A stretch of 34,342 nucleotides of DNA from Mycobacterium sp. UM_WGJ (lineage in GTDB: Bacteria > Actinomycetota > Actinomycetes > Mycobacteriales > Mycobacteriaceae): the NCBI RefSeq assembly GCF_000455125.1, contig NZ_AUWR01000006.1, positions 1-34,342 of the forward strand. The letters run 5' to 3'. Position 1 is the first letter of the stretch, and each line of letters starts with the position of its first letter. The position numbers were made by a program, and so were the translations under genes. The notes under the pieces were generated by a model that saw only the letters and a list, made by a program, of their open reading frames with translations, did no database searches and was not told the origin of the DNA. This document shows positions 1 to 28,938 of this stretch, piece by piece.

Positions 1-3000
1 ACACCACAGATCCCGTTCATTTCGACGGCGGTGGATCCCGCGGGGCCCACACCGCGACTGGACGCCGACTACTGGGTGGCCAATGTGCGCAAGCCCGCGC
101 TGGTCAGCCAGGCCGTGACGGTGGCAACGGCGGACCACGACACATTCATCGAGATCAGCCCCCACCCGCTGTTGACGCACTCCATCATCGAGACGGCCGA
201 GGCCGCCGACACGCCAGTGACAGTGGCCTCAACCCTGCGTCGGGGCGACGACGAAACGCTGAGCTTCCACGTTTCGCTCACCGAACTCGGTGGGCAGCAC
301 AGCGGCACCGGGGGCGCCAGGGCCGGCGGATTCGCCGAACTGCCCACCACCCCCTGGCAGCACAGCCGGCATTGGCTCTCCGGGCCCGGACGGGCCGGCC
401 AGGCACCGGACGTGCACCCGCTGCTCGGCGTACACGTCGAGCAGCTCACCGGCGACCACCTCTGGCAGAACGGCCTTCTTGCCGAGGCCATGCCGTGGCT
501 GGCCGAGCAGCCGGCGCACGGTCAGGCCATTGGGTCGGTGGCGGCACTGATCGAGATGGCGGTGGCGGCAGGCAGCCAGGCCCTCGGCAAGCCCGCCGAG
601 TCGATCGTGGTGACCGGCCTGCAGAGCGAACAGCCGCTGGTACTCCACAACGGAATGCAGGTCACCACCCAGTTCAGCGGGGCGGATGGCCAGAGCAGAG
701 TTGAGATCCACGCCCGCACGGCCGGCGGGGCCTGGACCCGGTATGCGGTCGCAGACATCGCAGCGGCGCCGGCGGATCAGGCGGCCTCGGAGCCTGACGA
801 GGGGACCGAGCACGGTGTGCTCACCCTGCCCGACACCGTGGCCACTCACCCCGCCTACCGCCTGCACCCGGCATTGCTCGATGCCGGGCTGCGGCAGCTG
901 GCGGCGGGCATCGGTGCCGATGACGCGGAGCACAGCGGTTACGTGCCGGTGGCGGTGGCCGGGGTGCGGGTGTTCGCACCGGCCGGACGTCAGGTGCGCT
1001 GCCACACCGAGGTGAGCCGTCCCGAAGACAAGATGGCCCTCGGCCGGGTCGTTCTGAGCGATGACACCGGCACCGCCATCGCTGAACTCACCGGTGTCGA
1101 GCTGCGGCCGCTGGATCCCCGCGCGCTGCGGGTGCCGCTGGACCAGAAGCTGTTCGCCACCGAGTGGACGCCCACGGAACTCGCTCCGACGTCCGAGGGC
1201 ACCGGTGCGGCCGCCGGCAGCTGGCTGCTGCTCACCGAAACCGACCCCGAGGGTGTGGCCGCGCAGTTCGCCGCACGGCTGTCCGCGCAGAACCGCACGG
1301 TGCTCACCGGCCCGTTCGCCGATGGCCCTGCCCTGATCGACACGGTGCGGCAGGCCGGCGCCGACCCGGCGCATCCGCCGGCCGGCATCGTCGTCTTCCT
1401 GGACCGGGTCGGGTTCGACAGCTCCGACCCCGACGCCGCATTGGCCCGCGCCCGCGAACTCGTCTGGACAGCGTCGTCGACGGCCCGCGCCGCGGTCGAC
1501 GGTTGGTCCGGCGTATCTGGGGCAACCAAACCGCGACTTTGGCTGGTCAGCCGGGGCGGTCTGGCGTTCGGCAGCGATGAGCCCGGCGACCCGGCTGTCG
1601 GTGCGCTCAAGGGCGTGGTCCGCACCTGGCGGTTCCCCGGCGAACTCGCCCGGGTGCTGGCCGATGAACCGGACCTGGGCGCCACCCTGGTCGACCTGGA
1701 GGCCTCGGCCGACGCCGCAGCCCTGGCCGACGACCTGATGGCCGAACTGGGCGCCCCGCTGCGCGACGACGTGGTCGCCTGGCGCGGTGGACGGCGCTAC
1801 ACCGAACGCCTCACCCGAGCCACCCTCGACGGTGCCGCTGACGCAGCCCAGGCTCCCCGGGCCGAGGTCCGCGCCGACGGCTCCTATCTGCTCACCGGAG
1901 GTCTGGGCGGATTGGGCATCGTGGTGGCCCGCTGGCTGGTGGCCCGCGGCGCGGGGCGAATCGTGCTCAACGGCCGCAGCGAGCCCGCCGAACAGCAGCG
2001 CGCCGTCCTCGACGAGCTGGCCGCCGGCACCGAAGTGGTCTTTGTCGCCGGCGACATCAGCTCGCCGGGGGTCGCCGACCGTCTGGTGGCTGCCGCCCAG
2101 GAGACCGGCAAGCCGCTGCGCGGCGTGGTGCACGCCGCCGGTGTGCTGGGCGACGGCCTGGTGACGGCGGTGACGCGGGAGAGCCTGGAGGGCGTCTGGT
2201 CGGCCAAGGCCCTCGGCGCCGCCCGGCTGCATGCGGCCACCGCAGCCTCCCAGCTCGACTGGTGGGTGGGCTTCTCCTCGATGGCCGCACTGCTGGGCCT
2301 GCCCGGCCAGCTCGGATACGCCACCTCCAACGCCTGGCTGGACGCACTGATGGCGTGGCGGCACGCTTCGGGCCTGCCCGCGACCGCCATCAACTGGGGT
2401 CAGTGGTCTGACGTGGGTCTGGGCCGGTCGATGACGCTGAGTGTTCTCGACCCGATCAGCCCCGACGAAGGCGTCGAGGCGCTGGACGCCGTGCTTGGTG
2501 CGGACTCCGGGCTGATCGGCGCTCGGATCGGGGTGGGACGACTGCGCATCGACCGTGCGGTCGCCACCTCGCCGGAGTTCCGGGATCTGACCTTCTTCGA
2601 AGACCTCGTCGGTGAGGCCTCTGAAGCCGGAGCGACGCTCGGGGCCGCTGGCACTGGTGAGCAGGCAAGCACCGGCGCGTCGGCGGCAGGCGCGCCGGAC
2701 TGGGCGACCATCCCCGCCGATCAGCGGCGTGAGGAGCTGGTGGTCCGGCTGCAAGCTATCCTGGCCCGCGAACTTCGGACATCTGCGTCAGCGGTCGATG
2801 TGGATCAGCCCTTCCCGGAGATGGGGCTCGATTCCATGATCGCGATGACGGTTCTGAAAGAGACACAACAGTTGGTGGGGGTGGATTTGTCGGCGTCAAT
2901 GCTGTGGAATCACCCCAGCATCTCAGCGTTGACGACGCACCTGGTGGGACTGCTGGCGTCGCGTTATGCCGAGCCGGACAGCACCGCGGGGCAAGACGAC

Positions 3001-3096
3001 GATGATTTGGAGTTCGGCTCATCCGGCGGCGTGCTGGATGAGTTGTTCGATCAGGTCGAGTCGGCTTCGACCGGTAGCGAGAGCGGTATTTATTGA
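1..3096 (+). CDS. Pps-type polyketide synthase, 5'-truncated (AT tail, degenerate DH, KR, ACP)
   Basis: This is the C-terminal 1031 residues of a modular type I PKS that begins before the window; the frame is open from base 1. Counting residues from base 1, the order is: end of an acyltransferase (1-110), DH-like region (135-370), a KR structural half without an active site (385-600), an NADPH-binding KR (627-830) and an ACP (900-980). The KR has GGLGGLG at 633-639, Lys736, Ser759/760, Tyr773 and Asn777, so it looks active. The ACP has GLDSM with the phosphopantetheine serine at 945. The DH is altered: the HxxxGxxxxP motif reads QPAHGQAIGS, with Gln170 for the catalytic His and Ser179 for Pro, although Asp294 remains. 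There is no enoylreductase. The protein ends in an acidic tail likely to dock with the next PKS, whose start overlaps this stop. By order it sits where PpsC is in M. tuberculosis, but its domain set differs. AT specificity cannot be read because that motif lies upstream of the window. Confidence 0.93.
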   Translation, partial: TPQIPFISTAVDPAGPTPRLDADYWVANVRKPALVSQAVTVATADHDTFIEISPHPLLTHSIIETAEAADTPVTVASTLRRGDDETLSFHVSLTELGGQHSGTGGARAGGFAELPTTPWQHSRHWLSGPGRAGQAPDVHPLLGVHVEQLTGDHLWQNGLLAEAMPWLAEQPAHGQAIGSVAALIEMAVAAGSQALGKPAESIVVTGLQSEQPLVLHNGMQVTTQFSGADGQSRVEIHARTAGGAWTRYAVADIAAAPADQAASEPDEGTEHGVLTLPDTVATHPAYRLHPALLDAGLRQLAAGIGADDAEHSGYVPVAVAGVRVFAPAGRQVRCHTEVSRPEDKMALGRVVLSDDTGTAIAELTGVELRPLDPRALRVPLDQKLFATEWTPTELAPTSEGTGAAAGSWLLLTETDPEGVAAQFAARLSAQNRTVLTGPFADGPALIDTVRQAGADPAHPPAGIVVFLDRVGFDSSDPDAALARARELVWTASSTARAAVDGWSGVSGATKPRLWLVSRGGLAFGSDEPGDPAVGALKGVVRTWRFPGELARVLADEPDLGATLVDLEASADAAALADDLMAELGAPLRDDVVAWRGGRRYTERLTRATLDGAADAAQAPRAEVRADGSYLLTGGLGGLGIVVARWLVARGAGRIVLNGRSEPAEQQRAVLDELAAGTEVVFVAGDISSPGVADRLVAAAQETGKPLRGVVHAAGVLGDGLVTAVTRESLEGVWSAKALGAARLHAATAASQLDWWVGFSSMAALLGLPGQLGYATSNAWLDALMAWRHASGLPATAINWGQWSDVGLGRSMTLSVLDPISPDEGVEALDAVLGADSGLIGARIGVGRLRIDRAVATSPEFRDLTFFEDLVGEASEAGATLGAAGTGEQASTGASAAGAPDWATIPADQRREELVVRLQAILARELRTSASAVDVDQPFPEMGLDSMIAMTVLKETQQLVGVDLSASMLWNHPSISALTTHLVGLLASRYAEPDSTAGQDDDDLEFGSSGGVLDELFDQVESASTGSESGIY

Positions 3097-6000
3097 TGAC
3101 GGGAATCTCGACGACGTCGATCTTCAACAGGATGTCGGCGATGGGTGCCGACAAACGGGGGGCGCTGACCGAGCAGTTCGACAAGGCGTCGCGGATCGCC
3201 GCCGCCGAACCGATCGCGGTCGTCGGGATCGGCTGCCGCTTCCCGGGTGGCGCTTCGGGCCCGGACGCCTACTGGGAGCTGTTGGAGACAGGCCGCGACG
3301 CCATCACCGAGATCCCCTCGGATCGCTGGGACGCCGACGAGTACTACGACCCGGACCCGCTGGCCCCGGGCCGGATGTCGTCGAAGTGGGGCGGGTTCAT
3401 CTCCGACGTCGCCGGATTCGACGCCGACTTCTTCGGGATCTCGCCGCGCGAAGCCGAGGCCATGGACCCGCAGCAGCGGCTGATGCTCGAGGTCGCCTGG
3501 GAGGCCCTCGAACACGCCGGACTGTCGCCGGAAACCCTGACGGGCATCCGCTCCGCGGTGATGATGGGTGTGTATTACACCGAATACCAAGGGATTTCGG
3601 CGGCCAACCCGGACGCTATCGACGGCTACTCGGCCACCGGTAACGCTCATGCCGTCGCCGTCGGCCGGATCGCCTATCTGCTGGGTCTGCGCGGTCCCGC
3701 GGTCGCGATGGACTCGGCCTGCTCGTCGTCGCTGGTCACCATCCACATGGCCTGCCAGAGCCTGCGCATGCGCGAAAGCGACCTGGCCCTGGCCGGCGGC
3801 GTCAGCCTCATCCTGCGGCCGGAAACCCAGATCGCCATGGCCAAGTGGGGCATGCTGTCTCCGCGCGGCCGCTGCCACACCTTCGACGCCGGAGCGGACG
3901 GATTCGTGCGCGGCGAGGGCGCCGGGATCGTCGTGCTCAAGCGCCTCACCGACGCCATCCGCGACGGCGACCGGGTGCTGGCGGTGGTGCGCGGTTCGGC
4001 GATCAATCAGGACGGCAAGTCCAACGGACTCACCGCCCCGAACACCATTGCCCAGATCGACGCGATCAGCCGGGCGCTGCGCAGCGCCGACGTCGCGGCG
4101 AATTCGGTGAACCTGATCGAAACTCACGGCACCGGAACAGCTTTGGGTGACCCGATCGAATTCGAGGCGCTCGCCGACGTCTACGGGCGCGGCGCTGACA
4201 AGTGTGCGCTGGGCGCGGTCAAGACCAATATCGGCCACCTTGAGGCGGCCGCCGGGATCGCCGGCTTCATCAAGGCTGCGTTGTCTGTGCAACGCGGAAA
4301 GATCCCGCCGAATCTGCACTTCACCAAGTGGAACCCGGCGATCGACCCGTCCGCGACGCGGCTGTTCGTCCCCACCGAGGTGACGCCGTGGCCGGCGGCC
4401 GAGGGACCGCGGCGTGCCGCGGTGTCATCGTTCGGGCTGGGCGGAACCAACGCGCACGTGGTGCTCGAACAGGGTCCTGACCCGGTTCCCGCGCCGGCAT
4501 CGGCCGAGCCGGTCGCAACCCTGGTGATCTCGGGCAAAACCGAGCAGCGAGTGGCGGATTGGGCTGCCACCCTGGCCGACTGGATCGCCGGGCCGGGCGC
4601 CGCTGTACCGCTGACCGACATCGCGCACACCCTCAACCACCACCGCAGCCGCTACGCCAAGTTCGCCACCGTCTGCGCACGCGACACCGAGCAGGCGTTG
4701 ACCGGGCTGCGGGCGGTCGCCGGCGGTTACCCGGCCCCCGGCGTGGTCGGCACACGCGCCGCGTTGCGTGGCAAAGGAACCGTCTTCCTGTACTCGGGCC
4801 AGGGCTCCCAGTGGGCCGGCATGGGCCGCCAACTGCTGGTCGATGAGCCGGCGTTCGCCGCCGCCGTCGACGAACTGGAGCCCGATTTCGTTGCGCAGGT
4901 CGGGTTCTCGCTGCGTCAAGTCCTCGAATCCGGCGAGCCGGTGGTCGGCATCGACCGCATCCAGCCGGTGCTGGTGGGCATGCAGCTGGCATTGACCGCG
5001 CTGTGGCGATCCCACGGCGTCGAGCCGGACGCAGTGATCGGGCACTCGATGGGGGAGGTGGCCGCGGCCGTGGTCGCCGGCGCGCTGAGCCCCGCGGACG
5101 GCCTGAAGGTGATCGCCACCCGGTCCAAGCTGATGGCCCGACTGAGCGGCCAAGGCGCGATGGCACTGCTGGAACTGGATGCCGACGCCGCCGAGAAGCT
5201 GGTCGCCGAGCACCCCGACATCACCGTGGCGGTGTACGCGGCACCGCAGCAGACCGTGATCGCGGGCCCGCCCGACCAGGTCGATGCCGTGGTCGCGATC
5301 GTCGACGCCCAGGGCAAGCTGGCCCGCCGCGTCGAGGTGGACGTGGCCTCGCATCACCCGACCGTCGACCCGATCCTGGGCGAACTGCGGACCGCGCTCG
5401 CCGGGCTGCAGCCGTCGGCGCCGAAGATCCCGCTGATCAGCACTGTCGGCCAGACACCGTCGGCATTCGACGCGGACTACTGGGTACACAACCTGCGCAA
5501 CCCGGTGCGGTTCGCCCAAGCCGTGACCGCGGCCGCCGCCGGGCACGCGACCTTCATCGAGGTCAGCTCGCATCCGCTGCTCAGTCACGCCATCAACGGC
5601 AACCTGGAAACCGCGCGGCCCGCCGGTGACAGCGTGGTGACCGGCACCCTGCTGCGCGACCAGGCCGAAGCGCTGAGCTTCCACACCAATCTGGCTACCG
5701 TGGCGCCGCCGTCGGCGGAGGCGCCGCAACCCGACGGTGGGATCGGCCGCGCCGACCTGCCGCCACGGCCGTGGCAGCACGTCCGGTACTGGGCTGCCCC
5801 GGTCGCCGCGAACCGCCACAGCGCCGACGCGCATCCGCTGCTGGGTATCCACGTCGAGCTGCCGTCGGGTCACGGCCACGTCTGGCAGGCCGACGTGGGC
5901 ACCGACCTCGTCGCGTGGATGGCCCACCACAAGGTGCACGGCCAGGTCGTGATGCCGGCCACCGGCTTCGCCGAGATGGCGTTGGCCGCGGCCGGCGAGG

Positions 6001-8522
6001 CGTTGGGGCTGCCGCCCTCGGCTGTTGCTGTGGACCGGGTCGAAGTCGAGCAGATGCTGCGCGTCGACGAACGCACCGAGGTCACCACCCGGCTGCTGCA
6101 CGATGCGGACGGATCCGATGAACTGCGCATCGAGATCCATTCCCGCCCGGCCGGCGGCAATTGGTCCCGGCATGCGGTGGCCCGTGCGGCCGCGGCACAG
6201 CCCGCTGCCGCGGCGCAACGCCCGGCCCCCAGCGGCGGCGGAACCGCGCTGTCGCCGGCGGACCTGTACACCGCACTGCGCCGCACCGGTCTGCAGCACG
6301 GGCCGGCGTTCGCCGCTCTGACCCGTATCGTCCGCAAGCCCGGCGGCGCCTCGGAGGCCGAGATCGTGCTGCCCGACGAGGCGACCGCGCACCGCGGCTA
6401 CCGCATCCACCCGGTGATGCTCGACGCCGCCCTGCAGTGCCTGGCCGCGGCGCTGCCCGACGAGTCGTTGATGGGCTCGGCCGGGATGGAAGAGGCGACC
6501 TATCTGCCGGTCGCGGTCGAGAACATCCGGATCTTCGGCGACGTCGGCCGCCGGGCCCGCGGGCACGCCGAACTGGTCAGCCACGACGACGGCGGAATCC
6601 TGGGCCGGGTCACCCTGACCGACGACGCCGGCACGGTCACCGCCGAACTGTCCGGAATCTATCTGCAGCGGGTGCAGCGCCGTACCGTGCCGCTGCCGTT
6701 GACGCAGAAGATCTTCGACACCGAGTGGGTCGACGCTGCCGCTCCCGCGCAGCCTCCGGCCGCCGCCGACGGCAGCTGGCTGGTGCTGACCGAGCCTGGC
6801 GAAACCGAGTCGCTGGCAGCCGATTTCGCCGCCCGCTTCGGCTCGGACAACCGCCGGGTGATCACCGCGGACCTGACCAGCGAACCCGCGGTGCGGGAGG
6901 CGTTCGCGCGGACCGCCGACGACCCGGACCGGCCCCCGGTCGGGGTGATCGTGTTGGCCGCCCGCAGTGCCTTCGACGGGACCGAGACCGGTGACGCGCC
7001 GGCCCGCGGTCGCGACCTGGCCTGGTCGGTGGCCTCCACGGTGCGCACCATCGTCGGCGGCTGGCACGGCACCGCGCCGCGGCTGTGGCTGGTGGGCCGC
7101 AACGGCCTGACGGTGGGGGACGAAGCGGGCGACCCGTCGATCAGCGCCCTCAAGGGGCTGGTGCGGGTGCTGGCCTACGAGCACCCGGACCTGCGCACCG
7201 GCGTGGTCGACCTGGACGCTTCGGCAGACCCGGCGGCGGCCTTGATCACCGAGTTGGGGCTGGCGAGCACCGACGACGTCGTCGCCTGGCGCGGGGAGAA
7301 CCGCTACGCCGAACGGCTCAAGCGCGCGACCCTGACCCCCACCGGCGCCCCGGCCGTGCGATCCGACGGCGCCTATGTGCTGACCGGCGGCCTGGGCGGT
7401 ATCGGGCTGGTCGTCGCCCGGTGGCTGATCGAGCACGGTGCCGCGCGGATCGTGCTCAACAGCCGGTCACAGCCGTCGCAGGAGCAGCGCGCTGTGCTGG
7501 CCGAGCTCGAGGCTCGAGCCCAGATCGCGGTCGTCTCGGGTGATCTCGCTACACCCGGTGTGGCCGAAAGCCTGGTGGCCGCCGCGGAACAGACCGGCTT
7601 GACGCTGCGCGGTGTCATCCACGGCGCCGCGGTCATCGATGACCAGATCGTGGTCGGCATCGACAAAGAGACCCTGGGCCGGGTGTGGGCGCCCAAGGCG
7701 GCGGCGGCGCTGCGACTGCACGTCGCAACCGTCGGCAAAGAGCTGGACTGGTGGGTCGGCTTCTCTTCGACCTCGTCGCTGCTGGGGGCACCCGGTCAGG
7801 CGTCCTACGCCGCGGCCAGTGCCTGGCTGGACGGCCTGGTGGCGTGGCGGCGGGCGGCCGGACTGCCGGCCATCACCATCAACTGGGGCCAATGGTCGGG
7901 TGTCGGTGTCGCCCAGGAGCTCAAGTTCAGTGCGCTGGACCCGATCAACCCCGATGAAGGCATGGAGGCGCTGGAGGCCATCCTCAGCGGTGACCTTTCC
8001 CGGGTCGGCGTCGCGCGACTGCGCCTGGACCGGGTGGCCGCGGCCTTCCCCGAACTGCAGCAGCTGGGGTACTTCGCGACGCTGGCCGAAGAGCTCGACC
8101 TCGACGACGAGGACGACGACTGGCCCGGTCCAGAAGGACTGAAGCAGCTCAGCGCCGCCGAAGCCACCAAAGCCGTTGTCGCACGGTTGGGTTCGCGGAT
8201 CATGGCCATCATGGGCTACCCCAAGGGCAGCGTCATCGACCCGGCTCGGCCGTTGACCGAGCTGGGTATGGACTCACTGATGGCGGTGCGCATCCGCAAC
8301 ACCGTTCGGGGCGACTTCGGCGCGGAGCCCCCGGTGGCACTGCTGCTGCAGGGTGCCTCACTGACCGACCTGGCCGCCGACCTGGCCCGCCAACTCGGCC
8401 TCGCCGGACTGGAGGGGGCGGACGGCGCGGGCGACGTCGGCGGTGTTCGGAGCCGAGCCCAGCAGCGTGCCGCGGCACGTCAGCGGGCCGCGGCACGGCG
8501 AAAAGTAGGAGATCGTTCGTGA
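3096..8522 (+). CDS. ppsD: PpsD-like polyketide synthase module (KS-AT-DH-KR-ACP)
   Basis: A complete one-module type I PKS of 1808 residues, close to the 1827 of M. tuberculosis PpsD and with the same domain order. The KS (about 30-450) has the DSACSSS nucleophile at Cys209 and the downstream His motifs THGTGT and NIGHLE. The AT (about 555-850) has GHSMGE with Ser651 and VASH at 750-753, a methylmalonyl-CoA signature. The DH has an intact HKVHGQVVMP motif (His945) and the DAALQ aspartate. The KR has GGLGGIG near 1431 and Tyr1571, but the usual catalytic Asn is Ser1575. The ACP serine is Ser1727. Expected chemistry is addition of a methyl-branched unit left as an alkene unless a separate enoylreductase acts in trans, as Rv2953 does for PpsD. 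The ATG at 3096 overlaps the upstream stop; a TTG at 3093 is the alternative. The last 25 residues are Arg/Ala-rich. Confidence 0.93.
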   Translation: MTGISTTSIFNRMSAMGADKRGALTEQFDKASRIAAAEPIAVVGIGCRFPGGASGPDAYWELLETGRDAITEIPSDRWDADEYYDPDPLAPGRMSSKWGGFISDVAGFDADFFGISPREAEAMDPQQRLMLEVAWEALEHAGLSPETLTGIRSAVMMGVYYTEYQGISAANPDAIDGYSATGNAHAVAVGRIAYLLGLRGPAVAMDSACSSSLVTIHMACQSLRMRESDLALAGGVSLILRPETQIAMAKWGMLSPRGRCHTFDAGADGFVRGEGAGIVVLKRLTDAIRDGDRVLAVVRGSAINQDGKSNGLTAPNTIAQIDAISRALRSADVAANSVNLIETHGTGTALGDPIEFEALADVYGRGADKCALGAVKTNIGHLEAAAGIAGFIKAALSVQRGKIPPNLHFTKWNPAIDPSATRLFVPTEVTPWPAAEGPRRAAVSSFGLGGTNAHVVLEQGPDPVPAPASAEPVATLVISGKTEQRVADWAATLADWIAGPGAAVPLTDIAHTLNHHRSRYAKFATVCARDTEQALTGLRAVAGGYPAPGVVGTRAALRGKGTVFLYSGQGSQWAGMGRQLLVDEPAFAAAVDELEPDFVAQVGFSLRQVLESGEPVVGIDRIQPVLVGMQLALTALWRSHGVEPDAVIGHSMGEVAAAVVAGALSPADGLKVIATRSKLMARLSGQGAMALLELDADAAEKLVAEHPDITVAVYAAPQQTVIAGPPDQVDAVVAIVDAQGKLARRVEVDVASHHPTVDPILGELRTALAGLQPSAPKIPLISTVGQTPSAFDADYWVHNLRNPVRFAQAVTAAAAGHATFIEVSSHPLLSHAINGNLETARPAGDSVVTGTLLRDQAEALSFHTNLATVAPPSAEAPQPDGGIGRADLPPRPWQHVRYWAAPVAANRHSADAHPLLGIHVELPSGHGHVWQADVGTDLVAWMAHHKVHGQVVMPATGFAEMALAAAGEALGLPPSAVAVDRVEVEQMLRVDERTEVTTRLLHDADGSDELRIEIHSRPAGGNWSRHAVARAAAAQPAAAAQRPAPSGGGTALSPADLYTALRRTGLQHGPAFAALTRIVRKPGGASEAEIVLPDEATAHRGYRIHPVMLDAALQCLAAALPDESLMGSAGMEEATYLPVAVENIRIFGDVGRRARGHAELVSHDDGGILGRVTLTDDAGTVTAELSGIYLQRVQRRTVPLPLTQKIFDTEWVDAAAPAQPPAAADGSWLVLTEPGETESLAADFAARFGSDNRRVITADLTSEPAVREAFARTADDPDRPPVGVIVLAARSAFDGTETGDAPARGRDLAWSVASTVRTIVGGWHGTAPRLWLVGRNGLTVGDEAGDPSISALKGLVRVLAYEHPDLRTGVVDLDASADPAAALITELGLASTDDVVAWRGENRYAERLKRATLTPTGAPAVRSDGAYVLTGGLGGIGLVVARWLIEHGAARIVLNSRSQPSQEQRAVLAELEARAQIAVVSGDLATPGVAESLVAAAEQTGLTLRGVIHGAAVIDDQIVVGIDKETLGRVWAPKAAAALRLHVATVGKELDWWVGFSSTSSLLGAPGQASYAAASAWLDGLVAWRRAAGLPAITINWGQWSGVGVAQELKFSALDPINPDEGMEALEAILSGDLSRVGVARLRLDRVAAAFPELQQLGYFATLAEELDLDDEDDDWPGPEGLKQLSAAEATKAVVARLGSRIMAIMGYPKGSVIDPARPLTELGMDSLMAVRIRNTVRGDFGAEPPVALLLQGASLTDLAADLARQLGLAGLEGADGAGDVGGVRSRAQQRAAARQRAAARRKVGDRS

Positions 8523-11500
8523 CCAACAATGAAGTGCCGCCTAACGCGATCGCGGTCGTCGGCATGGCGGGGCGCTTTCCGGGCGCCCGCACGCTGACCG
8601 GATTCTGGAACAACCTGCGCAACGGCGTCGAATCCATCGTCACGCTGTCCGAAGACGAGCTGCGTGCCAGTGGTGTGAGCGACCAGGCGCTGGCGAACCA
8701 CAACTATGTGCGGCGCGCTGCATTGCTGGAGGGCATCGACGAGTTCGATGCAAGCTTCTTCGGCTTCACCCCGCTGGCTGCTCGGACCATGGACCCGCAG
8801 CACCGGCTGTTCCTGCAGACCGCCTGGCACGCGTTGGAGGACGCCGGATACCGGCCCGGCGAGATCGAGGGATCGGTCGGCGTCTACGGCACCAGCACCA
8901 CCAGTGGCTACCTGCTGCACAACCTGATGTCGCACTACGACCCGAACCTGATCATCGGGCAGGGCGTCAGCTTCGAGATGGTCAACCTGTCGTTGCAGAA
9001 CGACAAGGACTATCTGGCCACCCGGGTGGCCCACCAGCTCGACCTGCACGGCCCGGCGCTGTCGGTGCAGACGGCCTGCTCGTCGGCGTTGGTCGCACTG
9101 CACCTGGCCTGCCAGAGCATCCTCAACGGGGAATGCGACATGGCGCTGGCCGGTGGGGCGTCCCTGCGGGTACCGCATCACGTCGGATACTGGCACGAGC
9201 CCGGCTCGATGGTCTCGGCGAGCGGGCACTGCCGGCCCTTCGACGTGCGCGCCGACGGCACCATCTTCTCCAGCGGTGTCGGTGTCGTGGTGCTCAAGTC
9301 GCTGGACGCGGCCGTCGATGACGGTGACCAGATCCATGCGGTGATCCGGGGTTCGGCGCTGAACAACGACGGCGGCACCAAGATGACCTACGCCGCGCCC
9401 ACCGCTGCCGGCCAGGCCGACGTGATCGCCGAGGCCCACGCGGTCGCCGAGGTCGATGCGTCCACCATCAGCTACATCGAGTCGCACGGCACCGCCACCC
9501 CGCTGGGTGACCCCATCGAGATCGAAGGCCTGCGACAGGCTTTCGCCGTCTCCGACGAACAGCGTTCCGGCCCCTGCTATGTGGGCTCGGTCAAGTCCAA
9601 CATCGGGCACCTGGAGTCGGCGGCCGGTATTGCCAGCCTGATCAAGACCATCCTGTGCCTCAAGCACCGGGCGATTCCCGGCACGCTGCACTACACCAGC
9701 CCGAACCCCGAGTTGCACCTCGAGGACGGGCCGTTCCGCATCCGCGGCGAGTACGGGCCGTGGGAAGCCGACGGCATCCGCCGCGCCGGGGTCAGCTCGT
9801 TCGGCGTCGGCGGCACCAACGCCCACGTCATCGTCGAGGAATGGCCCGAGGAAGACGCTGTGGCGGCGACGCCCAAACCCGGCCCCGAGGTGCTGCTGCT
9901 GTCGGCACGCACCGCCGAGGCGCTGGCGCAGGGCCGCCTCGATCTGGCTGCTGAGCTCGCCGGCGGAGGCGACGCCGAGGCGCCCAGCCTCCCCGACGTC
10001 GCCTACACACTGGCCAACCGGCACCCGCACAACCTGCGGCTGGCCGCGGTCGTCGCCGATCGCGCGGACGCAGCGGCAGTGTTGGGCGCCGAGGAGAGCG
10101 AGAACGTCTTCATCGGCGAGGGCATCGACCTGAATGACGTGGGCGAGGACGCCGCCGACCGGGTGGTGTTCCTGTTCCCGGGCCAGGGCGCTCAGCACAT
10201 CGGGATGGCCCGCGGGCTCTATGACAGCGAGCCGGTGTTCGCCGAGTACTTCGACCGCTGCGTCGCCGGTTTCGAGGCGGAGTTGGGCTACGACCTGCGC
10301 GCGATGATCTTCGAGGGCACCTCGCGTGACCTCGAGCGCACAGACCGCACCCAGCCGGCCCTGTTCACCGTGGAATACGCACTGGCGAAGCTGGTCGAGA
10401 GCTACGGCGTGCGTCCGGCGGCGCTGGTCGGTCACAGCATCGGCGAATACGCCGCGGCCACCGTCGCCGGCGTCTTCGACCTCGACACCGCGATCAAGGT
10501 GGTGGCGATGCGCGCCCGGCTGATGCATGCCGCGCCACGCGGCGTCATGGTGGCCGTCCCGATCAGTGCCGACGCGGTCGCTGCTTACCTGACCGGTGAT
10601 GTGGACCTGGCCGCGGTCAACGACCCGGACGGCTGCGTGGTCGCCGGGACCGAAGCTGACATCCGCGAGTTCTCCGATGCGCTCAAGCAGGCCGGCATCA
10701 ACGCGCGCCGGGTGCGGACCTCGCATGCGTTCCACTCCCGCCTGATGGACTCGATGATCTCGGAGTTCACCGCATTTTTGTCTCGGCAGACGCTCAACGA
10801 ACCGCAGATCCCACTGCTGTCGAATCTGACCGGCACCTGGCTGGCGCCCAGCGAGGCGACCAACCCGGCGACGTGGGCGCGCAGTGTGCGGGCCACTGTA
10901 CGTTTCGCCGACGAGATCGACACCGTGCTGGCCGACCCGCACCGGGTCCTGGTCGAGGTCGGGCCGGGCGCCACGCTGACCGCGTCGGCGGCCCGCAACC
11001 CCAAGTTCGCCAGTGGACATCGGGCCGTCCGACTGATGCGCCACCACGCCCAGAACCGCGACGACCGCGACACCTTCCTGCTGGCGCTCGGCCAACTGTG
11101 GGCGGCCGGCGTCGAAGTGGACTGGTCTGCGCTCCGCGGCGACTACCAGCCCAAGCGCGTCACTGTCCCCGGCTACCCCTTTGAACGCCAACGGCATTGG
11201 CTTGAGCACAATGCCGGTGCTACCTGGGTGTCCGGCTCGGGCACCGGTGGTGGCGGTGCAGCGGACGGGCAGCGCAACGGACAGGCGGCCGGCGGCGGCG
11301 AGTCCATGGAAGCGACGCTGCAACGGATCTGGGCGGTCTGCCTGGGGGTCGGCTCGGTGGACCGCACCGCCAACTTCTTCGACGTCGGCGGCGACTCACT
11401 GGTGGCGATCAGCGTCGCCATGGCCGCCTCGCACGAGGGCCTGGACCTCACTCCGCAGGACCTCTACGACAACCCGACCGTCGCGGCCCTGGCCAAGGCG

Positions 11501-12922
11501 CTGACCGCCCGCTACGCCGCCGGCGGGCTGGGCCGCCAGTCGCTCGGTGAGGTCGAGCACCCGCCGATTCCGCCGAACATCACCTACTTCCTGGAGAACG
11601 GCGTCCGCGAACACGGTCGCTGGCGCATCCCGTTGATCCTGCGGCTGCGGCCCGACGTCTCGGTCGACGACGTCGCCGCCGTGCTGACCGCGGTGGTCAA
11701 TCACCACGAAGCGCTGCGGGTGCGCATCACCGAGCGGGCCGGTACCTGGGAGCAGCGGATCGCCGAACCCGGCGAGTTCGGGGAGATCAGCACCCACTCG
11801 CTGCCCGAGGGACTGACCGCCGAACATGACGCGGTGCGCACGTTGCTGACCGAGCACATCCGTGACCAGGATCTGTCCAGCCCACCGCTGACGGCGCTCT
11901 ACATCCGCGGCGCGGCGGGGGACCTGTGCTACCTGGCGCTGAGTCTGCACGCAGGGGTCGGCGACGAGGCCTCCCGCGACATCCTGGTCACCGACATCTT
12001 CACCGCGTTCGGCCAGCAGCTGGGCGGCAACGACATCGAGCTGCAGCCGGTCGGGGCCGGATGGACCGAGTGGTCGCAGCGTTGCGCCGGGCTTGCGACC
12101 CACCCGGCGGTGCTGGAAAGCCGCGAATACTGGCTGAAGACAACGAAATCGGCGACGCTGCGGCTGGCCGCAGATGCCGCCGAGCCTCCTGCTGCGGCCG
12201 ATCTGTCCAAGCTCACCACGACGTTGCCCGCCGCCGACACCAGCGAGATCGACGATGCCCGTCGGCGGCTGCGGCTGCCGATCAACGAGATCCTGCTGGC
12301 CGGGCTGAGCCGGGCGGTGGCATCGGTGGTCGACGAGGGCACTCTGGCCGTCGAGATGGGGGGAGCGGGCCGTTCGGTGCTCAAGCCGGAGGTCGACCTG
12401 CGCCGTACCGTGGGCTGGTTCACCACGCTCTACCCGGTCGCGCTGGGCTGCTCCGCCGACGGCCAGCAAAGCGCCCGGCAGCTGTTGGACTCGATCCACG
12501 AAACATTGGACGGCGTGCCGCATTACGGGATCGGCTACGGCCTGCTGCGTTACCTGTACGCACCGACCGCGCGCCTGTTCGGCGCGGTCGCTCCCGCTGA
12601 TGTGCACTTCTCCTACGTCGGGGCGATTCCCGAGCCGCCGGCGCTCGGCGATTCTCCGGTGCAGTTCGACCCCGATACCGCGATGCCGGTGCGCGAGGCG
12701 ATCCCGGGGCTGGGGCATGCACTGGAGCTGCGGGCCTACCGCACCGGCGGTGTGCTGTACCTGGATTGGTGGCATGACAGCCGCCGGATCGAGGAGTCTG
12801 TGGTGCGCGCGATAGCCGACGGGTTCTCCGCGGCGGTGATGGATCTGGTCCGCGCGGCCCTCGCCGAAGAGGACATGGCCTCGCAGGGCGAGGACGAAAT
12901 GACCTTGGTCGAGCTGTCGTAG
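8519..12922 (+). CDS. ppsE: PpsE-like terminal polyketide synthase (KS-AT-ACP-condensation-like)
   Basis: A 1467-residue PKS that resembles M. tuberculosis PpsE along its whole length, including the unusual C-terminal domain. The KS (about 10-430) has QTACSSA with Cys187 and THGTAT/NIGHLE-type histidine motifs. The AT (about 540-850) has GHSIGE with Ser640 and HAFH at 736-739, which favours malonyl-CoA. The ACP has GGDSL with Ser960. Residues about 1015-1455 resemble a condensation/acyltransferase fold, but the HHxxxDG motif is not intact: only one His (1144) is kept in LHAGVGD. PpsE does the last extension in phthiocerol synthesis and has no reducing domains, so it should leave a beta-keto group. 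The GTG start shares four bases (GTGA) with the upstream stop, and AGGAG at 8507-8511 is a good ribosome site. It follows the PpsD-like gene and precedes papA5 by 26 bases, so one operon is likely. Confidence 0.95.
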   Translation: MTNNEVPPNAIAVVGMAGRFPGARTLTGFWNNLRNGVESIVTLSEDELRASGVSDQALANHNYVRRAALLEGIDEFDASFFGFTPLAARTMDPQHRLFLQTAWHALEDAGYRPGEIEGSVGVYGTSTTSGYLLHNLMSHYDPNLIIGQGVSFEMVNLSLQNDKDYLATRVAHQLDLHGPALSVQTACSSALVALHLACQSILNGECDMALAGGASLRVPHHVGYWHEPGSMVSASGHCRPFDVRADGTIFSSGVGVVVLKSLDAAVDDGDQIHAVIRGSALNNDGGTKMTYAAPTAAGQADVIAEAHAVAEVDASTISYIESHGTATPLGDPIEIEGLRQAFAVSDEQRSGPCYVGSVKSNIGHLESAAGIASLIKTILCLKHRAIPGTLHYTSPNPELHLEDGPFRIRGEYGPWEADGIRRAGVSSFGVGGTNAHVIVEEWPEEDAVAATPKPGPEVLLLSARTAEALAQGRLDLAAELAGGGDAEAPSLPDVAYTLANRHPHNLRLAAVVADRADAAAVLGAEESENVFIGEGIDLNDVGEDAADRVVFLFPGQGAQHIGMARGLYDSEPVFAEYFDRCVAGFEAELGYDLRAMIFEGTSRDLERTDRTQPALFTVEYALAKLVESYGVRPAALVGHSIGEYAAATVAGVFDLDTAIKVVAMRARLMHAAPRGVMVAVPISADAVAAYLTGDVDLAAVNDPDGCVVAGTEADIREFSDALKQAGINARRVRTSHAFHSRLMDSMISEFTAFLSRQTLNEPQIPLLSNLTGTWLAPSEATNPATWARSVRATVRFADEIDTVLADPHRVLVEVGPGATLTASAARNPKFASGHRAVRLMRHHAQNRDDRDTFLLALGQLWAAGVEVDWSALRGDYQPKRVTVPGYPFERQRHWLEHNAGATWVSGSGTGGGGAADGQRNGQAAGGGESMEATLQRIWAVCLGVGSVDRTANFFDVGGDSLVAISVAMAASHEGLDLTPQDLYDNPTVAALAKALTARYAAGGLGRQSLGEVEHPPIPPNITYFLENGVREHGRWRIPLILRLRPDVSVDDVAAVLTAVVNHHEALRVRITERAGTWEQRIAEPGEFGEISTHSLPEGLTAEHDAVRTLLTEHIRDQDLSSPPLTALYIRGAAGDLCYLALSLHAGVGDEASRDILVTDIFTAFGQQLGGNDIELQPVGAGWTEWSQRCAGLATHPAVLESREYWLKTTKSATLRLAADAAEPPAAADLSKLTTTLPAADTSEIDDARRRLRLPINEILLAGLSRAVASVVDEGTLAVEMGGAGRSVLKPEVDLRRTVGWFTTLYPVALGCSADGQQSARQLLDSIHETLDGVPHYGIGYGLLRYLYAPTARLFGAVAPADVHFSYVGAIPEPPALGDSPVQFDPDTAMPVREAIPGLGHALELRAYRTGGVLYLDWWHDSRRIEESVVRAIADGFSAAVMDLVRAALAEEDMASQGEDEMTLVELS

Positions 12923-12948: not shown

Positions 12949-14205
12949 GTGTTTGCCACGTCGGTCATTCGGAAGCTGGCGATCAGTGAGGAGATGCTGG
13001 CCGAGACCCACAATTTCGTGGGTTTGGCCGCGCACGTCACCGGTCCGGTCGACATCGACCTGCTCTCGGAGGCCTACGAGGCGCTGCTGGAGGCGCATCC
13101 GATCCTCACCGGCCGGCTGGAGCGACTGCCCGACGGGCGGCATCAGTTCGTCACCGACGATCTGATGCCCGACGGCATCGAGGTGATCGAACTCGACGGG
13201 CCCGACGCGCAGCCGCCTGCTCCGCGCTTCGACCAGGCGGAGTCGTTGGTGGCGATGCGGGTGATCATCCGCGACGGGCAGGCTCAGCCGACCCTGTATG
13301 TGCACCATGCCGTGGCCGACGGTCACCACATGTATGCGCTGATCGAGGAGATGCTGTCCTTCTACACCGATCTGGTCACCACCGGCCGGATCGGTGCGAT
13401 CAATGTTGAGCCCGCTCCGCTGTCCATTGAGGCGGTGCTGGCCGATCGGGGGATCGAGAAGCAGCAGCGCTCCGGGATCGAGCGGTTCATGCCGGCGCTG
13501 TTCGCCTACGACCTGCCGCCGACCCGGCGGGCCGTCGGGCAGGAGACGCCGGAATCGCCGATGCTGGTGCCGATGGCGTCGACCCGGTTGACCGAAAGCC
13601 AGACTGACAACGTGGTCGCGTTCGGCCGGGCCCACGACCTGAGCCTGCACGCGGTGCTCTCGGCAGCGGTGCTGATGGCCGAATGGCAGCTGCGCGGCAA
13701 GCTGAGTATCCCGGTGCCCTACGTCTACACCGTCGACTTGAGATACTTTCTGTCACCGCCCGTTTCGGCCACCGGATGCACCAACCCGATCGGGCTGGCC
13801 ACCTACCTGGCCGAGGTTGATGCCAAGACGGACCTGGTCGAGATCGCTCGGGACATCGCCGCGAACTTCCAGAAGGACCTCGACGAAGGTGTCATCCAGC
13901 AGTCCCGGTTGCACTTCAGCCCGCAATACGTCGGAAACCCGCCAGGACTGCCCGACGTCGTCGTGCTGAGCAACAACGGTCTGGTTCCGCCGGTGCGGAC
14001 GCCGCCGGGTGTCGAGGTGACCACAACACATGGCGAGCTGTACTTCGCCGTGAGCGCGGGCATCGACATCTACTTCACCCAGATCTTCTCCGGGCAGCTC
14101 AACATCGAGTACCACTCCCACGGACCGGCGCCGGAGCGCTCGGTGGAGACGATTCGCGCGCTGCTGTGCGATATCGCCGATCGGCACGCCGCCGGCGTCA
14201 GCTGA
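12949..14205 (+). CDS. papA5: PapA5-type acyltransferase (diol esterification)
   Basis: A 418-residue protein that closely matches PapA5 (422 residues in M. tuberculosis) from the N-terminal SVIRKL block to the C-terminus. PapA5 transfers methyl-branched acyl chains from the Mas synthase onto the two hydroxyls of phthiocerol. The catalytic HHxxxDG motif is present as HHAVADGHH, with His119, His120, Asp124 and Gly125. Later shared blocks include PYVYTVDLR and the VIQQS stretch. The GTG start is preceded by AGGAGAG at 12934-12940, eight bases away. In the M. tuberculosis locus drrABC lie between ppsE and papA5; here papA5 follows ppsE directly. The stop lies inside the end of the convergent methyltransferase gene (8-base overlap). 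A diol-esterifying enzyme in this position supports a DIM-like final lipid. The acyl donor synthase (Mas type) is not in the window. Confidence 0.95.
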
Positions 14206-26925: not shown

Positions 26926-27759
26926 TCAGTCTTTGACGAGGTCGAAAATGCGGTAGGTGATCTCGCCGCGGTCCAGATCGCGGTAGAACAGCGAACCCTC
27001 CACCACGGCGAACTCCCGGGCGAAGCGGCGCAGGAAGAACGGCATCCGCTCGTTGATCAGGTCGTTGGAGCGGGGCGAGTTGGCCGCCAGGCCGCGAACG
27101 ACCTCGCGGCTGATGTCGCGCTCGTTGACCAACCGCAGCGGCGGGGTGGCCAGGGTCTGCTGCCAGGACTCGATGTCTTCCTTGGCGCGGAAGTCGGTGT
27201 GCAGGAAGTGCCCACCGGGACGCAGCACCCGTCCCACTTCGCGGACGAACTGGGCGAAGTCGGGGTAGATGTGCGACGCCTCGACGTTGACCACCGCGTC
27301 GAACGAGTTGTCCGGGAACGGCAGGTTAAGTGCGTCACCCTGCACGAAGTCCAGCCCCGGCACCTGGTGGCGCTGCTGACAGAAGGCGACACCGTCCGGG
27401 TTGAAGTCCAGGCCGGTGTAAGAGGCGGGCTTGAGGGTGCGGGCTAGAAAGGAGGCGCCGCCGCCGTGGCCGGAGCTGACTTCGAGCACGTTCTTGCCGG
27501 CCAGGTCGATCTGGGTGGCGGTCTGGTGGTAGAGCTGGATTGAGTACCGGTTCTCTTCGTCGGCCTCGTCGAGCTTCAGGCCCAGCGGCGGGTCCTGCTC
27601 ATAGCCCCAGTTGAGGAAGACGACGTCGTCGTGTCCCATGCGCTTGGTCATGAACGGGTACCAGTACTTGAAGGCCTTCTTGTACAGCGGCATCGCCGAG
27701 ATGCGGTACACCAGATCGGCGCCGACTTTTTCCAAGGTCTCAGATGGGGAACGCACCAT
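26926..27759 (-). CDS. Rv2952-like lipid O-methyltransferase (copy 2)
   Basis: A 277-residue SAM-dependent methyltransferase resembling Rv2952, with the N-terminal KYWYPFMTKRMG block of that protein, EQDPPLG, the SAM loop VLEVSSGHGGGASF (91-104), ASYTGLDFN, LDFVQGDALNLPF and VEASHIYPD. It keeps the N-terminal block better than copy 1 and is probably the closer functional match to Rv2952. The ATG at 27759 has a TACTTT -10 box four bases upstream and no Shine-Dalgarno sequence; a longer frame up to 27864 overlaps the diiron oxygenase gene and is rejected. It follows the diiron oxygenase by 31 bases and is closed by a strong terminator, so it may be read both from its own promoter and from the upstream gene. 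Confidence 0.93.
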   Translation of the reverse strand: MVRSPSETLEKVGADLVYRISAMPLYKKAFKYWYPFMTKRMGHDDVVFLNWGYEQDPPLGLKLDEADEENRYSIQLYHQTATQIDLAGKNVLEVSSGHGGGASFLARTLKPASYTGLDFNPDGVAFCQQRHQVPGLDFVQGDALNLPFPDNSFDAVVNVEASHIYPDFAQFVREVGRVLRPGGHFLHTDFRAKEDIESWQQTLATPPLRLVNERDISREVVRGLAANSPRSNDLINERMPFFLRRFAREFAVVEGSLFYRDLDRGEITYRIFDLVKD

Positions 27760-27763
27760 ACCG

Positions 27764-27769
27764 AAAGTA
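27764..27769 (-). promoter_or_regulatory. Leaderless -10 box of methyltransferase copy 2
   Basis: TACTTT on the minus strand, four bases before the ATG at 27759, within the 31-base gap after the diiron oxygenase gene. Confidence 0.5.
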
Positions 27770-27790
27770 TGGCACAGCGCAGACGGAGCT

Positions 27791-28882
27791 TCAGACCTCG
27801 GTGAGCTGCGCCGGCAACTGCGCGCGTTGCGGCTCGCCGCGGTACCGCGACGGCGCACCGTCAATCTTGCAGATGCGCCACATCAACCGCGCCGCGGGAT
27901 TCATCAGTCCGAGTTCATGGCAGACCATCCGCACATCGGCGAACATGTCCCGCCAGGTCTGGCGTGCGTCCGGGTTGCCGAAGAACCACTTCTTGCGCGC
28001 CGACTTGGGAACATCGAACTCGCGGAAGAATTTGCGGGGCGGCACCACCATCGCCTGCCCGAGCATGCGCATGACGACGGGCACATAGAGCGAGAGCATG
28101 AACCGGCTGCTCCACCACAGCCGTGGCACCCGCCGCTGCAGGTACTGGTGGGCGAACGAGATGTGCCGGGCCTCTTCGGCGACGTGGATTCCGATCATCC
28201 TCCGGACGATCTCCGGGACACTGTCCTCTTCCCGAAGGGCAAGGGTCTGCAGGTAATCGAACGGGACCTCGCCCGCCAGGACCCCGAAGAAGAACGAGTT
28301 GGGCAACGGTCCGGCGTACAGCGGCACGATCGGGGAGAGCAGGCGCAGCCACCGCGGCATGCCCGGGACATCGACGCCGATGCGGTTCACCAGCTCCTGG
28401 AACATCAGCGTGTGGTTGCATTCCTCGATGCACTCGTGCAGGCAGTAGCGGTACTCCGGCGAGCCGTTGGGAACCCAGAACGTGTAGTGCATCAGGCCGC
28501 GCACCAGAATGCCCTCGAACTGCACGCCGACCTTGGCCATGTTGGCCTGACGCCACATGCCGATCGCGATCTTCTTTTCCAGGGGCTGCGCCTGGTACCA
28601 CGGGTGGCGGCCCAGCGGGTCCGCTCCTGACAGCACCCAACGGGAGTCGTCCGTCTTGACCGCGAGTTCGGGATCATTCCAGTCGATGTCCACGTACGGG
28701 TTGAAATTGCGTCGCACCGAACTTTCGGACAGCGTCGCCAAGGTTTCGCCGTAAGCCGCGTCGCCCCCGACGTACATGGCGTTCTTCAGCCGTCGAACGA
28801 AGTAGAAAAGGGCATAGGGCACCGACGCGACGGCAATCGAGCCGGCCAGCAACCAGCAGATGTCGATCACGACGGTCGGCAT
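27791..28882 (-). CDS. AurF-type diiron oxygenase
   Basis: A 363-residue protein of the AurF-like diiron oxygenase family. AurF itself oxidises an aromatic amine to a nitro group; other members are uncharacterised. The metal-ligand pattern of the family can be traced in full: Glu123 (QFEG), Glu154-x-x-His157 (EECNH), Glu205 (GEVPF) and His233-x3-Glu237-x2-His240 (HVAEEARH). Residues about 8-28 are a hydrophobic segment, so the protein is probably tethered to the membrane. The ATG at 28882 is chosen because the hydrophobic segment follows directly and GGGG lies 11-14 bases upstream; ATG at 28909 is the alternative. It is transcribed away from the monooxygenase at 29114 and towards methyltransferase copy 2. 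An amine, alcohol or alkene of a lipid could be its substrate; this is inference. Confidence 0.9.
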   Translation of the reverse strand: MPTVVIDICWLLAGSIAVASVPYALFYFVRRLKNAMYVGGDAAYGETLATLSESSVRRNFNPYVDIDWNDPELAVKTDDSRWVLSGADPLGRHPWYQAQPLEKKIAIGMWRQANMAKVGVQFEGILVRGLMHYTFWVPNGSPEYRYCLHECIEECNHTLMFQELVNRIGVDVPGMPRWLRLLSPIVPLYAGPLPNSFFFGVLAGEVPFDYLQTLALREEDSVPEIVRRMIGIHVAEEARHISFAHQYLQRRVPRLWWSSRFMLSLYVPVVMRMLGQAMVVPPRKFFREFDVPKSARKKWFFGNPDARQTWRDMFADVRMVCHELGLMNPAARLMWRICKIDGAPSRYRGEPQRAQLPAQLTEV

Positions 28883-28938
28883 ACGGACCCATTCCCCTTT
28901 TCCTGGCACGCACCTCGCGGGGCGTAGCCGAGCCGAAG

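Follow-up and report, generated by a model that had tools for sequence, protein, structure and literature searches.

A mosaic phthiocerol-type polyketide synthase of Mycolicibacter carries a segment-deleted and probably inactive dehydratase

The window analysed here, a stretch of 34,342 nucleotides from contig NZ_AUWR01000006.1 of Mycobacterium sp. UM_WGJ, opens with a gene for a polyketide synthase (PKS), called PKS C (1–3096, + strand), whose dehydratase (DH) domain, hereafter DH*, has an altered active site. Does its module form an alkene, as annotation from domain content would have it, or does it stop at the β-hydroxyl? From its relatives, the window is taken to belong to Mycolicibacter (the M. 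terrae complex). We propose, with a probability of roughly 0.85, that PKS C is a phthiocerol-type module with a dead, PpsD-derived DH, in which deletion of a segment came first and active-site decay followed, and that the β-hydroxyl is passed on toward a 1,3-diol.

The PKS C frame is open, without any stop codon, and is truncated at its 5′ side by the contig edge; its complete orthologue in the single-contig genome G022 has 1828 residues and displays the ketosynthase (KS) Cys and acyltransferase (AT) Ser motifs. The part present in the window comprises, all on the + strand, the AT tail, DH* (415–1125), a ketoreductase (KR, 1879–2412), an acyl carrier protein (ACP, 2746–2943, Ser codon at 2833), all delimited with Pfam, and a C-terminal docking end that docking-type scoring assigns to the PpsA type (VLDELFDQVES, 3031–3093). 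DH* belongs to the PKS DH fold family (PF21089, PF14765) by family score and by a modeled double-hotdog fold, and both of its halves, PKS_DH_N (415–717) and PS-DH (814–1125), score over the Pfam cut-offs, so that a domain caller would predict an alkene, as the original prediction had pointed out. The catalytic motif HxxxGxxxxP reads QPAHGQAIGS in the window translation (508–537, + strand; the start at 505 given earlier is one codon early), with Ser in place of the motif Pro. In a phmmer comparison with solved structures, the Gln encoded by codon 508–510 aligns with the catalytic His of the PpsC and CurK dehydratases, and alignment with PpsC, CurK, PKS D and the relatives brings no other His to this position; the His found three residues downstream (HGQ) is a separate residue that is also present in PKS D. 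The second catalytic residue, Asp (880–882), is retained, and Arg (CGG, 892–894) stands at +4 instead of the Gln or His of active dehydratases (880–894, + strand, by alignment). These substitutions had all been predicted correctly, as had the integrity of the KR, which retains the catalytic residues K, S, Y and N. C-type KRs read xGD in 17/17 aligned sequences, at a site where PKS D and PpsD read IDD.

A further lesion had been overlooked. Aligned to the DH of PKS D, DH* is devoid of a stretch of about 40 residues that includes the GPxF part of the GYxYGPxF motif: the His position and the Asp lie 125 residues apart in DH* and 166 apart in PKS D, and the PS-DH profile matches DH* at positions 52–163 of 166 only. 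The lesion maps to a linker (751–828, + strand) that is poorly conserved (mean pairwise identity 0.38) and in which the exact position of the gap is uncertain, pairwise gap placement being unstable there, which affects neither the His-to-Asp length nor the absence of GPxF. The claim that the fold is kept holds in part: a structure model of DH* shows, with modest confidence, a double hotdog from which the helix expected between two strands is absent.

The neighboring PKS D (3093–8522, + strand; KS-AT-DH-KR-ACP) provides a control. It combines a PpsB-type N-terminal docking end with a PpsD-type reducing part and tail; these types were scored on the orthologues from G022, M. shimoidei and M. kumamotonensis, the tail being scored on the window as well. 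Its DH has the intact motif HKVHGQVVMP at 5928–5957, as had been claimed, a GPxF stretch at 6288–6311 and the Asp at 6423. Across 16 genomes, His, Pro, Asp and Gln are kept in 16/16, and so is G(P/Q)xF, one of the 16 having been read by eye; MAG_CP (L057), whose locus ends too soon, was excluded from these counts. The KR of PKS D has Ser for the Asn of the Y-x3-N motif in the window, G022 and M. shimoidei, the PpsD proteins of M. gordonae and M. szulgai having Asn.

How widespread are the lesions of DH*? A scan of named genomes yielded 77 loci, with Mycolicibacter heraklionensis strain 1211594.5 as the top match (85%), and 27 of these loci were aligned together with rows from four further genomes. 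This gave 19 C-type rows, of which 18, including the window, were retained after L051 had been dropped. In M. icosiumassiliensis (NZ_LT546166.1, L051/L050), a second PKS C copy is fused to a PKS A tail in a locus containing 175 N; this fusion is probably a scaffolding artefact over the repeat shared by the A and C genes. The GPxF segment is absent from all 18 rows. Seven of them retain the His (L054, L055, L057, L060, L068, L069 and G016), and the other 11 have Q, R, N or Y there or lack the residue; for M. senuensis and M. algericus, the gap at this position allows alternative placements, none of which yields a His. The Asp is retained in 17/18 rows and replaced by Glu in M. shimoidei. A second, overlapping set came from a draw of 297 same-genus genomes, of which 19, counting the window, matched at E ≤ 1e-55. 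None of these 19 carriers has the segment; 7/19 retain the His and 17/19 the Asp, which is replaced by Glu in G237 and by Ala in G112, a carrier that still has a His. An intact GPxF segment occurs in no C-type row among either the 18 rows or the 19 carriers.

This distribution bears on the possibility that the sequence itself is wrong, a contig edge or a collapsed repeat having produced a chimeric DH. The contig does begin inside the A/C repeat region, but the segment is missing in every relative aligned, and the Gln together with the missing segment recurs in G022 and G115, both single-contig genomes, as well as in named isolates, which makes the chance of such an artefact practically negligible. 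An error of base calling or assembly was likewise rejected, the nearest relatives carrying Gln or Arg and the same lesions.

It also bears on the cause of inactivity. A point mutation of the His could have inactivated the DH, with the missing segment as a harmless difference in length: the window bears both lesions, and His loss by itself is expected to kill the enzyme, judging from an extract on the H959F variant of PpsC. However, the segment is missing in 19/19 carriers and the His in 12/19, and the motif in that segment is among the most conserved of these domains, with an identity of 1.00 in PKS D and low entropy of the GPxF region across modular DHs according to the available part of PMC6697708. 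We thus consider death by His loss quite unlikely. Since the GPxF segment is also missing from those relatives in which the His survives, DH* had most likely lost its activity by the time the His disappeared. The original prediction that the DH is dead and that the module stops at the β-hydroxyl is therefore well supported by comparison of sequences, but its proposed cause, the His loss, was probably not the first.

The selection pattern was analyzed on 91 pairs from 14 genomes of the Mycolicibacter clade, in which G016 was placed by the 17-row tree discussed below. The median ratio of nonsynonymous to synonymous substitution rates (dN/dS) is 0.411 for DH* and 0.171 for the KR of PKS C, compared to 0.150 and 0.122 for the DH and KR of PKS D; dN is higher for DH* than for the PKS D DH in 91/91 pairs, with a median ratio of 3.1. 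In the same 14 genomes, the mean pairwise identity of the His column is 0.34 in PKS C versus 1.00 in PKS D, indicating that the His loss is more than chance; in a paired sign test, 16 genomes yield p = 0.002 (10/10 discordant). Within DH*, the His column falls in the least conserved fifth, and the mean pairwise identity is 0.60 for the catalytic-His motif and 0.83 for the HPLLG edge. Selection on DH* is relaxed, not free.

Two other explanations can be weighed against these figures. The first is that DH* still works with altered chemistry, the retained Asp and a new residue catalyzing dehydration or another step. The Asp is indeed retained in 17 of the 19 carriers, its motif has an identity of 0.86, and a dN/dS of 0.41, well below 1, implies that the domain is still selected. 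New chemistry, however, should fix residues, whereas the His position is occupied by H, Q, R, N, S or Y or is absent, depending on the carrier, and lies among the least conserved columns; in addition, G112 has lost the Asp yet keeps its His. A catalytically reassigned DH* appears very unlikely. The second is that PKS C as a whole is a decaying relic, PKS A performing its step. Since the docking types of the two proteins coincide and their heads are closely alike, A could stand in for C, and the KR of C evolves about 1.5 times as fast as that of D. On the other hand, PKS C has an intact KR with a dN/dS of 0.17, the ACP Ser and no stop in frame, its full-length G022 orthologue displays the KS Cys and AT Ser motifs, and strong relaxation is confined to the DH. 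Whole-gene decay was thus thought unlikely, the KR and the remainder being conserved.

The order of the two lesions can be approached through their distribution. Deletion of the segment most likely preceded the decay of the active site, this being the simplest order because all carriers examined are without the segment and only some without the His. The fewest kept/lost changes of the His amount to four on a 17-row tree built without the C DH and again to four on a 19-row KR tree, a minimum that may include regains. The segment may itself have been lost more than once.

Several observations weigh against the proposal of a dead DH in which the deletion came first. Of the seven carriers in the 297-genome draw that keep the His, six also keep the Asp, so that for these proteins it is the missing segment that argues for inactivity, and the Asp motif is well conserved in PKS C. 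Among the five DH* models, two are poor, with mean predicted local distance difference test (pLDDT) scores of 51.5 and 45.4, and the best is modest (mean 72.8, 58 near the catalytic motif). The 91 dN pairs are not independent of one another, and dN is also higher for the KR of C than for the KR of D in 84/91 of them (median ratio 1.5): the whole of PKS C evolves somewhat faster than PKS D. When the His loss is counted as four events, the sign test gives only p = 0.125, and several forks are weakly supported in both trees. Finally, the N-terminal half of the window's PKS C is absent from the assembly of its genome, and the head was therefore deduced from the relatives.

In which assembly line would PKS C operate? 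In G022 the genes are ordered ligase-A-B-C-D-E-PapA5-like frame. The line ends, as in phthiocerol-type systems, with a PpsE-like PKS E bearing a condensation domain (8519–12922, + strand; KS-AT-ACP-Condensation, by Pfam and type scoring), followed by a PapA5-like acyltransferase (12949–14205, + strand; 612.9 bits, below the equivalog cut-off of 716) that is expected to esterify the diol. The starting components are also found, namely PKS B, which lies on contig C63 in the window genome and has an N-terminal ACP, and a fatty acyl-AMP ligase, which adjoins PKS A in G022. Instead of the PpsA-B-C-D-E order with an enoyl reductase (ER)-bearing PpsC, the heads and tails are reshuffled. By sliding comparison of G022 with PpsA–E of M. 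gordonae and M. szulgai, (i) PKS A has a PpsC-type head followed by a PpsA-type reducing part and tail; (ii) PKS B has a PpsA-type ACP and KS and a PpsB-type end, its AT and KR being similar to several Pps; (iii) PKS C has a PpsC-type head, a PpsD-type DH*-KR and a PpsA-type ACP and tail; (iv) PKS D has PpsB-type docking and KS, a PpsC-like AT and a PpsD-type reducing part and tail; (v) PKS E is of the PpsE type. Docking scores agree with this typing: A and C start like PpsC and end like PpsA, the smallest margin being 54 versus 28 for A in G022, B ends like PpsB, and D starts like PpsB and ends like PpsD. The docking-pair reading leans on the module order of the known Pps line; if the pairs work as they do there, the chain is predicted to run B → (A or C) → D → E. 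Pfam detects no separate ER domain in PKS A, B, C or D, PF13561 (a short-chain dehydrogenase/reductase family with 'enoyl reductase' in its title) overlying the KR; a search for trans-acting ER candidates for module D with PF03435 gave four genome matches, the best at 49.9 bits.

The A and C heads were compared in 11 DNA windows covering docking-KS-AT. Within a genome, they are 97–100% identical in 8/11 windows in G022, 99–100% in 6/11 in G016 and 100% in 10/11 in M. kumamotonensis; between G022 and G016, identity is 79–93% for the A heads and 68–92% for the C heads. As single alignments of 2.1–2.6 kb, the A and C heads are 93.1% identical in G022, 92.9% in G016 and 99.7% in M. kumamotonensis, and only 77.9% in M. 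shimoidei. A/C identity falls sharply at the AT/DH border in PKS A and C of G022, G016 and M. kumamotonensis (L037, L038, L040, L041, L132 and L133). Over much of their length, the two heads of one genome resemble each other far more than heads from different species do, and they are likely kept alike by gene conversion in Mycolicibacter. Such conversion would also account for the ends of contigs C6 and C63 of the window genome at this region and for the failure to find a close head match in its assembly. More tentatively, A and C could be alternative modules for one step, yielding two diols with, for example, different stereochemistry at the second hydroxyl, and the two modules would have become interchangeable through the inactivation of DH*; we regard this as possible rather than probable.

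Compared to the Pps proteins, DH* and KR of the G022 PKS C are closest to PpsD (33–47% in DH windows, 53–62% in KR windows), but the PpsD-type dehydratases aligned keep their motifs and DH* does not. The docking-KS-AT head is mostly closest to PpsC, which has an ER by its known layout, and, in contrast to PKS C, neither PpsC nor PpsD of M. gordonae has a PpsA-type tail. PpsA, a Pps module with a DH-like region, matches PKS C in its ACP and C-terminal docking type, whereas its DH′ in M. gordonae keeps HxxxGxxxxP and is not the nearest relative of DH*. Note that, of the pps clusters on G104:C49 and G105:C25, that of M. szulgai starts with a PKS frame of 1664 residues that gives no match to the DH′ of PKS A, and that of M. 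gordonae with one of 1857 residues that does. The PpsA product retains its hydroxyl in phthiocerol. PpsA being described, in an excerpt of PMC9210659, as ACP-KS-AT-DH-KR-ACP, the pathway already offers an example of a DH within a module that forms a hydroxyl. In the accessible text of PMC9673147, the DHs of demurilactone modules 4, 6, 7 and 8 are considered inactive on the basis of the product, their catalytic His being lost or their GYxYGPxF altered; those are point changes, whereas in DH* a whole segment is gone in all carriers examined and the His is variable. The ψ-KR of MAS, as portrayed in part of PMC12370991, is likewise a domain kept without its chemistry, a KR there and a DH here.

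Altogether, PKS C would be one module of a Mycolicibacter phthiocerol-type line, with a DH* of PpsD ancestry. Once the deletion common to the carriers examined had occurred, relaxed selection would have let the catalytic His, the motif Pro and the +4 Gln drift, while purifying selection would have preserved HPLLG, the Asp motif and the greater part of DH*, presumably as structure. With a working KR and a dead DH, PKS C would pass on a β-hydroxyacyl chain; judging from the docking types, C, or its partner A, would take the chain from B and hand it to D. In the known pathway a PpsB-type KS head accepts a hydroxyacyl chain from PpsA. The predicted outcome is a 1,3-diol that PapA5 would esterify twice, the dead DH leaving the second hydroxyl; if C acts at that step, a live DH would remove one of the two hydroxyls. 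PapA5 is reported to diesterify phthiocerol, a diol, in the portion of PMC3089613 available. If this reading is right, the Mycolicibacter product would be a phthiocerol-like diol and, after esterification, possibly a diester lipid. The window also encodes a phthiotriol-type O-methyltransferase (26929–27864, − strand; 445.5 bits, cut-off 300), beside which lie an AurF-type N-oxygenase (27791–28909, − strand) and a cytochrome P450 (25385–26743, − strand).

Inactive PKS DHs are already known; a mosaic PKS with a segment-deleted DH is new, and neither an inactive DH in a Mycolicibacter phthiocerol-type PKS nor this cluster was found among the matches listed from the open-licence PMC literature. 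If our proposal is true, a mycobacterial group makes a phthiocerol-like diol by a reshuffled, perhaps one-module-shorter line, in which a dead DH preserves a hydroxyl on which the diester depends. The carriers would represent decay stages of a single PKS domain, with the segment gone and the His kept, or with the segment and the His or Asp gone, and this natural series would help to ask what a PKS module continues to require of a domain whose chemistry is gone.
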